Of a stretch of 64,000 nucleotides of DNA, positions 5,073-55,434 are shown piece by piece. A program made the translations under genes and the position numbers. The stretch spans positions 1-64,000 of the forward strand of contig NZ_QVMT01000009.1 of the NCBI RefSeq assembly GCF_003418935.1, read 5' to 3'. The stretch is from Emticicia sp. C21 (GTDB lineage: Bacteria; Bacteroidota; Bacteroidia; Cytophagales; Spirosomataceae). Position 1 is the first letter of the stretch. Each line of letters starts with the position of its first letter. The notes beneath the pieces were generated by a model. The model was not told the DNA's origin. It searched no databases and saw only the letters and a list, made by a program, of their open reading frames with translations.

Positions 5073-5095
5073 TTTTGTGTTCTTATAAAATCCTG

Positions 5096-5136
5096 AAAAG
5101 GTTCGGCGTAAAACTTTACGCCGAACCTTTTTGTTT
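5096..5136 (+). terminator. Strong terminator after the M20 gene
   Basis: A 17-bp stem, AAAAGGTTCGGCGTAAA (5096-5112) with its complement (5115-5131), followed by TTTTTG then TTTT. The AAAAGG/CCTTTT outer arms make it look similar in both directions. Confidence 0.85.
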
Positions 5137-38501: not shown

Positions 38502-38689
38502 TTTTTGATTGATTTGTTAAAGGTTATTTATACCCCGAACCTACCAATATTCTCCTTTAACAAGAGAATCTTTACAGAATTGTCAAAGCGATGCTACTCA
38601 AGCCGTTTTTCAAGGCTAGAACATCCAAATCATTTCTATAAAATCAATGCTTGACTAAAGCCTTATCCGTGAAAGCATAGTCATTAAGA

Positions 38690-38870
38690 TTAACGGCAAG
38701 TCTCCTGACTTATGAATATTACTCTGTCGCCCTTCTCATTTTGCAAACAATGGGCTTTATTGACAAAACTTATTCTTTACAGAACATTCATTTACAGTAG
38801 CACGTCTGTTCGTGATTTTCACACGATTCCTTTTTAATTTTGTTTAAGCTTACTCAAACAAAACCGTCAA
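38690..38870 (-). ncRNA. Cobalamin riboswitch upstream of metE
   Basis: Read on the minus strand, the hallmarks appear in order. Closing stem TTGACGG (38870-38864) pairs with CCGTTAA (38696-38690) through one G-U. Next come AGGAATCGTGTGAAAATCACGAA-type conserved core pieces and CTACTGTAA. The B12 box AGTCAGGAGACTTGCC lies next to the closing stem. About 190 nt separate the aptamer from the metE ATG. I cannot identify the expression platform with confidence. Repression of metE by adenosylcobalamin or related cobalamins is the expected outcome. Confidence 0.92.
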
Positions 38871-38899
38871 TCCGATTGAAAGGTATTGCGAAGACGAAG

Positions 38900-40094: not shown

Positions 40095-40294
40095 TTGTAA
40101 TTGACTTAATAAGACTTTAATATTCTGATACAAAAGTATGGCTTGTTTAGAATAAATCCAAATTTAATTACGATTTATTTGGAACGGGTCTAAATAGCTT
40201 CAGTTAAGGCATATGTTGGATAATATATCTGTCTGATTTTACGAAAAAGCGTTATCAAATACTTTGAAAACAGAATGTTATTTCTGAAATTCAG

Positions 40295-40358
40295 GGATGT
40301 CTAATCTTGGATTACAACTCATTAATAGACATCCACGCGAAAACTATTATGGTTTTCG
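40295..40358. repeat. Two consecutive inverted repeats in the glnII upstream gap
   Basis: GGATGTCTA (40295-40303) pairs with TAGACATCC (40326-40334). Four nt later CGAAAAC (40338-40344) pairs with GTTTTCG (40352-40358). A third, CAATGC-CAATA-GCATTG, lies nearby around 40382-40399. Together they could fold as a small structured RNA or be remains of a mobile element. Confidence 0.4.
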
Positions 40359-40444
40359 AAGAAAAAAAGAAAGAGTCAAGCGCAATGCCAATAGCATTGG
40401 TGTAGCAAATATATTTCTCATTATGATTAAGAAAGCCTATGACT

Positions 40445-40690
40445 ACTATTTATGAGGGGGAACCAATGAAGTCTTCAAGGTATTAACCACTAAAACGGAA
40501 CCTGAAAAGGTAACCGATATGGCAGCTACCTTTTTAAACGTTGGCAGCATAGGAAACTGGTTTAAAAGTGAGATTGGTTATAATTACCAACAGATAGTTT
40601 CAGAATCAGGCAAGTATCGACAAAGAAATGGGCATCAGAAAAGGTTGCCAATATGGTGGGAACCTTTTTGACCGAGGACAGCAAAAATAT
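40445..40690 (+). repeat. Decayed relative of the 80-bp hairpin repeat (locus A)
   Basis: Two clear copies (about 40491-40548 and 40622-40683) and one weak copy near 40450-40475 of the unit described at 52077-52375. Each clear copy keeps GAAAAGGT, ATATGG and ACCTTTTT. Stem arms are AAAAGGTA with TACCTTTT in the first and AAAAGGTT with AACCTTTT in the second, a compensatory change. Copies are 134 bp apart here, not 80, so the array looks eroded. The first copy begins CACTAAAACGGAA exactly as in locus B. Confidence 0.7.
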
Positions 40691-41081
40691 CCAGATTATT
40701 GTAACAACTTCCCAGTAGGTAGAACTTTATTTAAACATCAAAGACAGCTCATTTGAATTAGTCAATTCTACTTAAAATATACTTTTATAGATAAGCATTA
40801 ATTCTTAAAAAAATCAAATCAATCAAAAATACAATTTTCACAATTATTAGTGCAATTTTTCGTTAAATGATAAATATTTTTTATTTTTTCTAAAAAATAA
40901 GGTTTCAAAAAGGCATCAGCAATTCATTTTTTTATAATTTTATACTGAAATAAGAATATAGTTTATTTACAAACCGAGGAGCAATCTTACTTTTTCTATA
41001 ATTAATTGCATTTTTTAAAGAATATGAAATTTTTGACTAAAATAATTGGAGTTTAAAGAATCTTATATTGTTTTTAGCATA
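40690..41081. other. AT-rich gap before glnII, no gene seen
   Basis: Very AT-rich DNA without a credible reading frame on either strand. The only structure is a 20-bp palindrome, TTATTTTTT-CT-AAAAAATAA (40881-40900), which might be a regulator site or a weak bidirectional terminator. The glnII promoter candidate lies at its right end. Confidence 0.5.
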
Positions 41082-41137: not shown

Positions 41138-42154
41138 ATGTCAGTAGCTAAATTAGAGTACATTTGGCTTGATGGTTACAAACCAACACAAAGCCTTCGC
41201 AGCAAAACCAAAATAGAAAAAAATTTCAGTGGTAAATTGGAAGATTGTGATATGTGGTCGTTTGATGGTTCATCTACAGAACAAGCACCAGGTGGTTCAT
41301 CTGATTGCTTATTGAAACCTGTATTTATCTGTCCTGACCCAGCTCGTTTAGGAACCGGATATTTAGTAATGTGTGAGGTATTGAATGCTGATGGCACTCC
41401 GCATGAGTCTAACGGTCGTGCAACAATTGAAGATGATGATAATGATTTCTGGTTTGGTTTCGAGCAAGAATATTTCTTGTGGAATCCTGAAACTAACAAA
41501 CCATTGGGTTTCCCGGCAAACGGTTACCCAGCTCCGCAAGGACAATACTATTGTTCGGTAGGTGCAGCTAACGCATTTGGTCGTGAAATTATTGAAGAAC
41601 ACCTTGAAATCTGTTTGAATGCTGGCTTGAACGTTGAAGGTATCAATGCTGAGGTAGCTGCTGGTCAATGGGAATTTCAGGTATTTGCTAAAGGTGCAAA
41701 ACAAGCAGGTGATGAAACCTGGATTGCACGTTATTTATTGGAAAGATTAGGTGAAAAATATAATGTTGCTATCAACTGGCATTGTAAACCGCTTGGTGCA
41801 ACAGACTGGAATGGTTCTGGTATGCATGCTAACTTCTCAAACACTGTCTTGAGAACTGCAGGTAAAAAAGAAACTTACGATATTATCTGTCAGGCGTTCG
41901 CTCCTTTTGTGAAAGAACACATTGCAGTTTATGGTGCTGATAACCACTTACGTTTAACTGGTAAGCACGAAACTCAATCAATTGACAAATTCTCATACGG
42001 TGTGTCTGACCGTGGTGCATCAATCCGTATCCCGATTGCAGCGGTTCAGAAAGGTTGGAAAGGCTGGTTAGAAGACCGTCGTCCAAACTCTGCGGCAGAT
42101 CCTTACAAAGTGGCTGCCCGTATCATTAAAACCGTTAAAACAGCAGAAGTTTAA
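41138..42154 (+). CDS. glnII: Glutamine synthetase type II (eukaryote-like)
   Basis: A 338-residue GSII, the short form typical of eukaryotes and some bacteria. Seen: LEYIWLDGYKPTQSLRSKTK at the start, MWSFDGSSTEQAPGGSSD, the catalytic glutamates in FWFGFEQEYFLW and GINAEVAAGQWEFQV, then DWNGSGMHANFS and RRPNSAADPY. All active-site blocks are present and the length is normal. It has its own promoter region and terminator. With GSIII at 31.7-33.9 kb the cell has two non-homologous-type synthetases close together. Confidence 0.97.
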   Translation: MSVAKLEYIWLDGYKPTQSLRSKTKIEKNFSGKLEDCDMWSFDGSSTEQAPGGSSDCLLKPVFICPDPARLGTGYLVMCEVLNADGTPHESNGRATIEDDDNDFWFGFEQEYFLWNPETNKPLGFPANGYPAPQGQYYCSVGAANAFGREIIEEHLEICLNAGLNVEGINAEVAAGQWEFQVFAKGAKQAGDETWIARYLLERLGEKYNVAINWHCKPLGATDWNGSGMHANFSNTVLRTAGKKETYDIICQAFAPFVKEHIAVYGADNHLRLTGKHETQSIDKFSYGVSDRGASIRIPIAAVQKGWKGWLEDRRPNSAADPYKVAARIIKTVKTAEV

Positions 42155-51756: not shown

Positions 51757-52076
51757 GGTTAGTTTTGTTTTCACAGGTCAGTCAATCACGGTAGCGATGA
51801 ATTTGTTAATTCTCTGAACAAATGAAGTAGATAAAATTCATTTTTGCAATAACACTTTCGGGTTATTTCTTAGTTTAGAATTGATTTGTTTAGGCTTATT
51901 CCTTCCCTTTAAATGTATTTTTTTGTTGAACCTGCATCAAATGATGAAAGCCTAAATAAGAGTCATTCGCATGAGTAATAGCGCAGCAGTCTAATTATAC
52001 TAAAAATCTACCTAAACACTTTGAAAACACAAACTTACATCGGAAATTTATTGGAGTGTGCATGAGTATCTGTCAC
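51757..52076. other. Intergenic DNA left of the repeat array, no gene seen
   Basis: AT-rich upstream region of the response regulator gene, without a credible reading frame. At its right end ACTTTGAAAACA (from 52018) and about 28 following bases resemble 40261-40300 in the other repeat locus, so the homologous block extends beyond the repeats themselves. Confidence 0.5.
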
Positions 52077-52375
52077 TAAAACGGAATCAGAAAAAAAGCA
52101 ATATGGTAAGAACATTTTTGAACGAGAACAGAGAGCGTTGCAGTATTAGCCAAGAAAACGAACCCAGAAAAGGTGAACAATACGGTGGGAACCTTTTTGA
52201 AATAGAACAGAGAGCATTGCATGTACCATACAAGAAAACGAACCCAGAAGAGGTAAACTATATGGTGGCAACCTTTTTGAAAGGGAACAGAGAGATTTTC
52301 AGATCCAAGCCACGAAAGCGAAGCCAGAAAAGGTTACCAATATGATGGGAACCTTTTTGGGCGAGAGTGATATGT
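52077..52375 (+). repeat. Tandem array of four 77-80 bp hairpin repeats (locus B)
   Basis: Four units begin near 52078, 52155, 52235 and 52315, with periods 77, 80 and 80 bp. Each has about 58 conserved bases (AAAACGAACCCAGAAAAGGT, then ATATGGTGGGAACCTTTTTG, then GAACAGAGAG) and about 20 variable bases. Three units can fold AAAAGGT with ACCTTTT followed by a T run, like a terminator; the first is damaged. In one frame the core reads PEKVxNMVGTFL, but stops and frameshifts interrupt it, so no intact protein is encoded now. Related copies lie at 40445-40690. Confidence 0.85.
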
Positions 52376-52512
52376 TTAAAGATTTTAAAGTAATGAAAAT
52401 CTTAGACAACCTCTTTATCTCAATTTTAATGATTTTTAACTGATTACTCTACAAACTATCGAGTTCTGTCTAAATCTAAGTACTCGTTTTAAACCATCTG
52501 AAAATTGTTTTG
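52376..52512. other. Short gap after the repeat array, no gene seen
   Basis: AT-rich sequence between the last repeat and the M28 peptidase promoter. I see no gene or convincing structure. Confidence 0.5.
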
Positions 52513-54002: not shown

Positions 54003-54416
54003 ATGAAACTACTTTTTGTTGCACTAAGTCTTGCTTTTATTCTTGATACTTGTGATTCTAAAGTTATTGAACCCAAAGAACTAATAGGTAAATGGAATCC
54101 GGCCTATAAGGTTCAAAATAAAAACCCGGATGGTACATGGGGGGCATGGTCAACCATTAATACTTTTGTGGCATTGCCTCAGATGGAGTTCACTTCCAAC
54201 GGAGATTTTTTAAGAGATGGAAAACCCGGTGCGGATTGTTGCTCTGCCGGCAATAAATTCACTGTGGCGAATAATGTTATTACATTTTCAGATTTAAAGT
54301 CTTGTCCTCAAGTAAAATGTATGGATTGCTCTAAGTGGACCATCAATCAGCTAGATTCTGACACTTTAGTTATTGAAGTTTGTGATTCAAGAAGCAAATA
54401 TTCGAGAGGGAAATAA
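54003..54416 (+). CDS. Cys-rich lipocalin-like lipoprotein, paralogue 1
   Basis: A 137-residue lipoprotein with lipobox LDTC (Cys17). The mature domain begins ELIGKWNPAY, like lipocalin-type small lipoproteins. It keeps the cysteine set shared by its two neighbours: an adjacent Cys-Cys pair (GADCCSAG), CPQVKCMDC and a final Cys in IEVCDSR, six in all, suggesting three disulfides. Ligand and role unknown. First of three tandem paralogues; its own terminator follows at 54457. Confidence 0.82.
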   Translation: MKLLFVALSLAFILDTCDSKVIEPKELIGKWNPAYKVQNKNPDGTWGAWSTINTFVALPQMEFTSNGDFLRDGKPGADCCSAGNKFTVANNVITFSDLKSCPQVKCMDCSKWTINQLDSDTLVIEVCDSRSKYSRGK

Positions 54417-54456
54417 TAGTAGAATAAAGAAATAATATTTTAGATTATAGTCGAGG

Positions 54457-54492
54457 AATGGGTGTGGTATAAATCCTGCACTCATTTTTTTT
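54457..54492 (+). terminator. Terminator after lipoprotein paralogue 1
   Basis: AATGGGTG (54457-54464) pairs with CACTCATT (54479-54486) through one G-U, with a small GG/CC inner pair, followed by TTTTTT. Confidence 0.7.
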
Positions 54493-54559
54493 GATGCTAT
54501 AAAACCATCCATTCCAACTTTATTCTTAAAAAAGGTATCATTACCAAAAAAACTAAACT

Positions 54560-54973
54560 ATGAAAACTCTTTTTATCTTCCTTTGTCTGATAATCGCCTT
54601 AAGCAGATGTGATTCTGATTCAATCTCACCTGTTAAGCTGTTTGGCAAGTGGAATCCAACCTATCAGAGGCAAATTAAGAATGATAATGGTTCATGGAAA
54701 CCATGGACCATGATAAATACGCTTGAAGCAATCCCTCAATTGGAGTTTACTGCCGAAGGCAAGTTCTTAACAGATGCCTTGCCATCAAAAGATTGTTGTT
54801 ATCCAATGGGTAATTATAGCCTTTCAAGAAATGTTATTACGTTTGAAGCCCAAATAATATGTCCTAATGGATTATGTGTGGACTGCAAAAAATGGATAAT
54901 TAATAGTCTGGATTCAGATACACTGATTGTTGAATCATGTACTTCAAGAAACAAGTATGTAAGAGTCAAATAG
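54560..54973 (+). CDS. Cys-rich lipocalin-like lipoprotein, paralogue 2
   Basis: A 137-residue lipoprotein with lipobox LSRC (about Cys17). It shares KLFGKWNPTYQ, the Cys-Cys pair (SKDCCYPMG), CPNGLCVDCKKW and VESCTSRNKY with its neighbours, but diverges in the central strands. A terminator separates it from paralogue 1, so it probably has its own promoter. Paralogue 3 starts 50 bp downstream. Confidence 0.82.
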   Translation: MKTLFIFLCLIIALSRCDSDSISPVKLFGKWNPTYQRQIKNDNGSWKPWTMINTLEAIPQLEFTAEGKFLTDALPSKDCCYPMGNYSLSRNVITFEAQIICPNGLCVDCKKWIINSLDSDTLIVESCTSRNKYVRVK

Positions 54974-55023
54974 AATAATTAAATCTGGATATTCCCTTAA
55001 AAAGACCACATTGAAAAAAAAAT

Positions 55024-55434
55024 ATGAAAAGACTATTAGCAACGTTTGCCACTGTAATTTCAGTTTTTGCCTGCAAATCAGATGTTATTGTTCCCGAAAA
55101 ACTGATTGGAAAATGGTTTCATACAAATCAGGTACAATACAGAACCGCTGATGGTTGGGGGCCTTGGAATACGTTTGTCAATATAACTGCCATCCCTCCT
55201 ATAGAATTTACTGCCAAAGGGAATTATTTAAGAGATGGAAAACCAGGAGCTGAGTGCTGTACTGCAGGTAATAAATTTACAGTTTTGAATAATGTAATTA
55301 AATTCTCAGATGTGCTGGATTGCCCCCAGATGAGTTGCATGCCTTGTAGAGAATGGTCTGTACTTAGATTAGATACGGATTCACTGGTTGTTGAATCATG
55401 TGGATTAAGAATTAAGTATGCTAGAATTAAATAG
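55024..55434 (+). CDS. Cys-rich lipocalin-like lipoprotein, paralogue 3
   Basis: A 136-residue lipoprotein with lipobox VFAC (Cys17). It has KLIGKWFHTNQ, GAECCTAG, CPQMSCMPCREW and VESCGLRIKY, so all six cysteines of the group are kept. It looks closer to paralogue 1 in the central NKFTVxNNVI segment than to paralogue 2. The convergent amt terminator hairpin lies 80 bp downstream and could serve both. Confidence 0.82.
   Translation: MKRLLATFATVISVFACKSDVIVPEKLIGKWFHTNQVQYRTADGWGPWNTFVNITAIPPIEFTAKGNYLRDGKPGAECCTAGNKFTVLNNVIKFSDVLDCPQMSCMPCREWSVLRLDTDSLVVESCGLRIKYARIK

Follow-up and report, generated by a model that had tools for sequence, protein, structure and literature searches.

What is the tandem array of hairpin-forming units of about 80 bp that lies between two divergent genes in the window, the 64,000-nucleotide stretch of Emticicia sp. 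C21 DNA analyzed here? TRF placed the array at 52099–52359 (period 80, 3.3 copies, score 315), one of only two arrays in its window-wide output. Repeat finding recovered 80-nt copies at 52151, 52231 and 52311, the later two 80% and 61% identical to the first, together with 44-nt partial copies at 52099, 52178 and 52258 (spacings of 79 and 80). As detailed below, we consider that the array probably forms the interior of a non-autonomous, MITE-like transposon, now decayed, which has IS5-type ends and carries a phage terminase small-subunit gene (terS) and its 5′ leader.

An array of four units inside a larger element

Repeat finding, combined with sequence inspection for the first unit and with a core profile for the others, delimits four units on the + strand: a worn unit 1 at 52074–52150, unit 2 at 52151–52230 (core 52164–52200), unit 3 at 52231–52310 (core 52244–52280) and unit 4 at 52311–52390 (core 52324–52359). 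Units 2 and 4 keep the AAAAGGT/ACCTTTT stem in full, unit 3 has a single mismatch in it (AAGAGGT) and unit 1 no longer has it. The intergenic gap measures 766 bp between the flanking ORFs (51774 and 52541). The array is thus as the initial annotation had described it, with four units about 80 bp apart in a gap of about 770 bp, most of them able to fold this stem. A CRISPR array was considered for the locus and rejected, as 80-nt copies at 80% and 61% identity are not near-identical and the spacers share terS codons.

The copy of the element to which the array belongs spans about 51883–52413. Its left end, a worn inverted repeat GATTTGTTTAGG at 51883–51894 (+), was placed by comparison with two intact MITEs of the same genome (L128 and L129), whose left half resembles the stretch that follows. 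This call rests on that longer similarity and on the bounds of an insertion (about 51866–52400, see below), because a mismatch scan did not single out the left end. A conserved leader, also found 5′ of terS in terS-terL loci, matches its profile at 51987–52052 (+) with 53.2 bits, and the repeat region abuts it directly. The right end, TTAGACAACCTC at 52402–52413 (+), has 2 mismatches to GAASTTGTTTA, a match that is weak alone, being reached by 23% of shuffles. The units are frameshifted and therefore look non-coding.

A second copy, which had escaped notice, lies at 40231–40711 (+), with its leader from 40231, two unit cores at 40500–40535 and 40635–40671 and a worn right end near 40711. The next ORF after it, at 41138–42154 (+), we take to be glutamine synthetase. 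Elsewhere in the window, positions 54003–55434 hold three tandem paralogous small ORFs (137, 137 and 136 aa) with the pattern LxGKWxxxxQ...CCxxGNxF, lipoprotein-like by reading.

A dispersed family restricted to two species

BLASTN of the 6.64-Mb C21 genome (33 contigs) returned 72 repeat matches, and a profile search of stretches fetched from it found 133 units in 40 stretches, forming 41 arrays of 1 to 6 units. Among 92 unit periods, 55 are multiples of 3 and 48 equal 75, 81 or 90 bp; 13 are 80 bp, like those of the window array. A similar family occurs in one sister species, Emticicia sp. BO119 (G001). Within a set of 58 genomes of relatives (own genome counted, with at most 12 candidates scored per genome), the DNA repeat was present in 2. 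A search for the exact core pattern in an 84,980-genome collection, which possibly does not include the C21 genome itself, yielded one species; tightened slightly, the pattern matches 65 of the 133 units. The unit pattern found no match among viral contigs. Three loci (L018, L019 and L034) are occupied in both species with differing unit numbers, while L017 and its sister orthologue have three units each. The search of genome and relatives and the comparison of copy number proposed in the initial annotation have thus revealed a dispersed family, shared with a sister species, whose unit counts change at some loci and are equal at another. We conclude that the terS-derived MITE-like element is real and lineage-restricted.

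The repeat unit descends from a terminase gene

The origin of the unit is clearest in the best-preserved copies. A single open frame runs through all units of L006 and L029 (five 90-bp units each), L014 (five 75-bp units) and L017 (three 75-bp units). L029 (308 aa) and L017 are open genes, and their products match PHROG 309, the terminase small subunit, with E=5.5e-43 and E=5.5e-41, respectively. Pfam gave only weak HTH matches for these two proteins, below the cut-off. A structural model of L029 (mean pLDDT 68.5) has a confident HTH part, with the repeats lying between beta strands and modeled partly at low confidence. Its best Foldseek match was the Sf6 small terminase (prob 0.99 but E 0.11; none at E<=0.001), and a terS sequence profile run against solved structures found no clear relative (best E 0.0053). 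Upstream of the intact orphan terS of L017, an ORF of FNSSMVRLK repeats (L017:105-542) is probably a CRISPR array read as protein.

The C21 genome also contains a repeat-free terS adjoining terL (L086), and in alignment the unit falls on the linker of this protein (EKAAEVDSAFF in terS, EKVTNMVGTFL in the unit). In terS, the region homologous to the unit lies between the N-terminal HTH part and a conserved AQIFWLKNR block; copies carry this region 1–6 times in tandem, often with periods of 75, 81 or 90 bp. Relatives of the sister's terL-linked terS are annotated in phages as terminase small subunit. Descent of the unit from terS is near certain. Intact copies, and periods that keep the coding phase, show it to be a palindromic stretch of phage terS that has been duplicated in tandem. 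The 30-bp palindromic core may have promoted growth of the arrays through slippage or template switching.

Intact genes survive in a few copies; most, including that in the window, are frameshifted. The sister species also has an orphan terS (L167) with one unit and a half, in which the right-end motif directly follows the stop codon. For the open gene L017 and its orthologue L171, dN/dS is 0.16 (0.20 in the repeats) over 218 codons, a value from a single pair in which L171 has an early stop. The stages stand side by side, from an array-free terS beside terL through an orphan terS with about 1.5 units and open genes with three or five units to dozens of wrecks, and a phage packaging gene can be seen turning into a mobile repeat. 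Of the earlier suggestions, a relic of a repetitive protein holds in the form of a terS-derived ORF with repeats of 25–30 residues. The idea that the array is simply a decayed fragment of some known gene family is right about the unit, which is a piece of terS, but falls short for the element, which has its own leader, ends and bias in position and direction.

Leader, ends and mobility

The leader is common to 45 loci of the C21 genome, the terL-linked terS included (51 profile rows, of which 6 are from the sister), and longer copies, such as the one in the window, start with the stretch that resembles the left half of the two MITEs. These MITEs, which are array-free, have 16-bp perfect inverted repeats, GAAGTTGTTTAGGATT, 3-bp duplications (AAT and ATT) and a shared left-end sequence. 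Ends of the GAASTTGTTTA type were found within one mismatch on the right at 8 of 38 loci and on the left at 4 of 38; both ends lie within two mismatches at 5 of 38, a level at which chance matches are common. Exact target duplications were absent from the array-bearing copies with both ends readable (ATT at the left end against TTT at the right in the window copy; GGT/ATT at L012), and no left inverted repeat was found at L029, L017 or the orphan terS L167. At L004, L006, L008, L030, L074, L166 and L167 the leader is preceded by a further module, TGTCAAAATCTGATAAAGCA..., which contains short repeats and is partly present at a terS-terL locus too.

Sites in the sister species provide direct views of insertion. 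The window site is empty there, with a split alignment that delimits a 535-bp insertion at about 51866–52400, and the L012 site is likewise empty, revealing a 675-bp insertion with inverted repeats at the join. The L006 site is also empty, with an imprecise joint; at the L016 site the sister has longer, unrelated sequence free of units, and L023 gave no scorable result. The family is therefore dispersed (41 arrays), short (the 535-bp insertion) and devoid of a transposase of its own, its ORFs being terS relics, and two of its sites, that in the window and L012, are empty in G001. Mobility of the element is well supported, and our reading is of a non-autonomous, MITE-like transposon with terS as cargo, now in decay.

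An insertion sequence with similar ends carries DUF4096/DDE_Tnp_4 (IS4/5-type) transposase domains, although it looks truncated, and 3-bp target duplications fit an IS5 subgroup. Mobilization by an IS5-type enzyme is probable, and an IS5-family transposase acting in trans could have moved the copies. Several C21 contigs (L130, L131, L132, L133, L134 and L136) end about 110–190 bp past a TGAASTTGTYTA motif, as if broken inside multi-copy insertion sequences with the same kind of ends. The duplication length is not given in the excerpted text of PMC12730594.

The strongest rival needs no transposon. On this view, integrating phages or satellites, or ectopic duplication, dispersed terS, whose copies then decayed into a plain pseudogene family with a hairpin that is only coding sequence. 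That only a minority of copies keep recognizable inverted-repeat ends agrees with this account, as do the presence of the leader 5′ of terS in terS-terL loci and the dN/dS of the intact, repeat-bearing L017/L171 pair. We nonetheless regard it as unlikely: copies stop soon past the array and do not run into terL, right ends recur (including the one at the stop codon of L167), and the left-end sequence is common to free MITEs. Two further observations against it, on position and on codon phase, are given below.

Position and direction relative to genes

Unexpectedly, the placement of the copies relative to the genes beside them proved strongly biased. When ORFs of 100 aa or more are counted, the next gene and the copy point the same way at 34 of 36 C21 loci (19 between divergent genes, 14 co-directional and 1 without a left gene), the exceptions being L028 and the well-kept copy L017. 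Agreement is 36/36 with ORFs of at least 150 aa, but this filter skips a 138-aa, apparently real gene behind L017. Five further C21 loci agree without exception. In the sister species, where loci were picked by the exact core pattern and 5 of 28 were dropped at locus edges, direction agrees in all 23 scorable loci (14 divergent, 9 co-directional). The two sets are not fully independent, because at least L018, L019 and L034 are common to both genomes. Considering co-directional sites only, the counts are 14 to 1 in C21 (two-sided binomial 0.001) and 9 to 0 in the sister.

Convergent gaps are nearly avoided by the copies. In 139 kb of control DNA from the C21 genome (64 kb of window, 20 kb each of L086, L087 and L180 and 15 kb of L088, the two window copies included), 7322 of 25968 intergenic bp (28%) are convergent; given this background, at most one convergent site in 59 has P=9e-8. 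Left neighbors are balanced, 15 to 15 with 6 unknown, while the next gene is nearly fixed in direction, so the array-bearing end faces a gene start. This strong bias in position and direction also speaks against a plain pseudogene family.

Replacement of a resident promoter by the element was examined as well. The promoter consensus TAnnTTTG is not missing more often in element-bearing genes than in controls (8/35 versus 15/49, with L007 left out of the 36 loci), so promoter replacement is unsupported. Copies of the MITE-like transposon may have been retained before genes as upstream regulatory DNA, or insertion may be drawn to promoters in one direction; selected regulatory retention and targeted insertion are both unproven as the cause of the bias. 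The position data raise the hypothesis of a regulatory role, and a position just 5′ of genes, pointing toward them, makes the element a candidate mobile gene switch. So strong a statistical pattern of near-fixed position and direction calls for a mechanism, whether mobile regulatory DNA or direction-sensitive target choice.

The hairpin as an RNA or DNA feature

Hairpins upstream of genes could also act as RNA, either as a bank of intrinsic terminators or, within the 5′ region of the following gene, as protein-binding RNA, and a terminator-like or RNA-binding repeat was one of the possibilities in the initial annotation. The layout of A-tract, stem and T-tract is suggestive, as is the location of copies upstream of genes, and folding of the + strand of the array is slightly more stable than that of shuffled sequence (z -1.78, matched by 4 of 100 shuffles; - strand z 0.07). 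The scans at the locus were less favorable. No terminator was called, in a weak test whose rule wants a free T tail; 2 promoters were predicted versus 3.2 in shuffles; and at gathering thresholds Rfam had no family at the array. Its sole match in the window was a cobalamin riboswitch at 38678–38883 on the minus strand (83.3 bits). A perfect terminator-like hairpin lies between genes at 5089–5132 of the window, with outer arms, AAAAGGTT...AACCTTTTT, the same as those of the repeat core.

Across the units of the family, G.T and A.C mismatches number 31 and 29, which is no signature of an RNA strand. In 88 distinct cores (131 of the 133 units kept), core pair 14-25 is paired in 80 versus 74.7 in shuffles, a level reached by 0 of 2000, and pair 12-27 in 65 versus a shuffle mean of 59.0 (largest 69); the five other core pairs that were shuffled had no excess pairing. 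Overall, covariation is weak and strand-symmetric, with one compensated change noted by eye in a unit pair of L019/L094. About half of the copies, moreover, sit between divergent genes, where there is no read-through from upstream genes. We therefore judge a function as RNA to be improbable, and the terminator or RNA-binding interpretation did not fare well.

The three codon positions of the core carry similar information (1.40, 1.50 and 1.49 bits), which counts against a hairpin that is merely coding, as a plain pseudogene family would have it; core conservation is in part a selection effect, because the units were found with the core profile. At the corresponding position, the terL-linked terS forms a stem of its own, AAAAGGCG/CGCCTTTT, which 2 of 100 shuffles reach. 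Palindromes are not in excess in terS linkers generally: 4 of 82 scored (84 given) had p<=0.05, the C21 terL-linked terS among these 4, and the L167 and L169 linkers were cut too short. At three loci occupied in both species, identity is 188/223 in the core, 178/225 in the leader and 484/792 in the rest, a comparison on which we do not rely because alignment of the rest is poor at two of these loci and, in L019/L094, core and rest differ little (84% and 79%). Selection on the hairpin is likely but unproven, and a cause at the level of DNA or of mutation (slippage or template switching) fits the hairpin at least as well as an RNA structure does.

The earlier notion of a mobile REP-like element was apt as to mobility, given dispersal and an empty sister site; REP-like palindromes moved by a RAYT (Y1) transposase independently of terS would account for dispersed, tandemly grouped palindromic cores of about 30 bp, but are a very remote prospect with units that continue terS codons and a leader that precedes the array, in the same orientation, in 22 of the 23 sister arrays scored and lies 5′ of the C21 arrays examined.

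A split phage-like gene cluster

The terL-linked terS belongs in both species to a phage-like cluster of terS-terL, portal and protease-capsid-tail genes that is split by bacterial genes, some of them identical in kind between the two. In C21 it comprises L180, L088, L087 and L086 (contig C23, about 520–593 kb) and in the sister L177 and L178 (contig C22, 364–404 kb). The order is terS-terL, bacterial genes, portal, more bacterial genes, and then protease, capsid and tail, with MFS, Crp-like and reductase genes within the terL-portal distance of about 26 kb in C21 and about 15 kb in the sister. PHROG matches were obtained for 9 of 10 cluster proteins scanned. Eleven phage-like genes compared between the species have 0 inner stops and dN/dS of 0.02–0.17 where dS is unsaturated (it is saturated for TerL and one tail gene). 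The cluster's terS and capsid gene occur in only 2 of 11 genomes of the genus, those of these two species.

The split cluster resembles a gene transfer agent or a domesticated phage, which makes it a candidate for the former in Bacteroidota. Conceivably, the terS-derived repeats are linked to a domesticated particle of this sort. In its boldest version, to which we give only a slim chance, the element would be a minimal packaging parasite, a transposon reduced to terS and its own binding sites (the leader and palindromic array, serving as a pac-like site) that recruits terL and the capsid of the split cluster, so that chromosomal copies become packaging starts. If this were true, genes behind copies would be transferred preferentially.

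Comparison with known systems

A survey of open-licence papers for terS-bearing transposons, Emticicia insertion sequences and gene transfer agents of Cytophagales returned nothing relevant. The HTH part and C-terminal AQIFWLKNR...WRDK block are shared with PHROG 309 terminase small subunits, whose linkers differ in having no palindrome excess in the 82 sequences scored, and most Emticicia copies have no adjoining terL in the stretches inspected. Rickettsia palindromic elements are likewise palindromic DNA in protein genes, read in frame, and they insert into many different host genes; the Emticicia palindrome, in contrast, belongs to one gene, terS, and multiplies within it. Correia elements and other bacterial MITEs, some of which carry promoters, are similar as small mobile DNA mapped predominantly immediately 5′ of genes, but the excerpted account describes neither a terS relic nor a tandem array in them (PMC10969869).

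The closest precedent is BrickBuilt, a MITE with an inner minisatellite from Porphyromonas gingivalis, and by architecture, as far as the excerpts of its description go, the Emticicia element is a variant of the kind it represents (PMC4596501). BrickBuilt has 19 intergenic copies in one strain, only 4 of which have both ends; transposase is absent inside, promoter activity was measured, and the ends were compared with insertion sequences such as the IS5-family ISNme1 (PMC4596501). Differences are nonetheless evident. BrickBuilt repeats are 23 nt without spacers, whereas the Emticicia unit is a 75–90-bp piece of terS with a palindrome; the excerpts name no phage gene for BrickBuilt, while some Emticicia copies are intact terS genes; and direction toward the next gene is nearly fixed in the Emticicia element, compared with BrickBuilt (PMC4596501). 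What the two have in common is their occurrence in Bacteroidota and a plan of leader, tandem repeats and tail, with short inverted repeats at the ends (PMC4596501).
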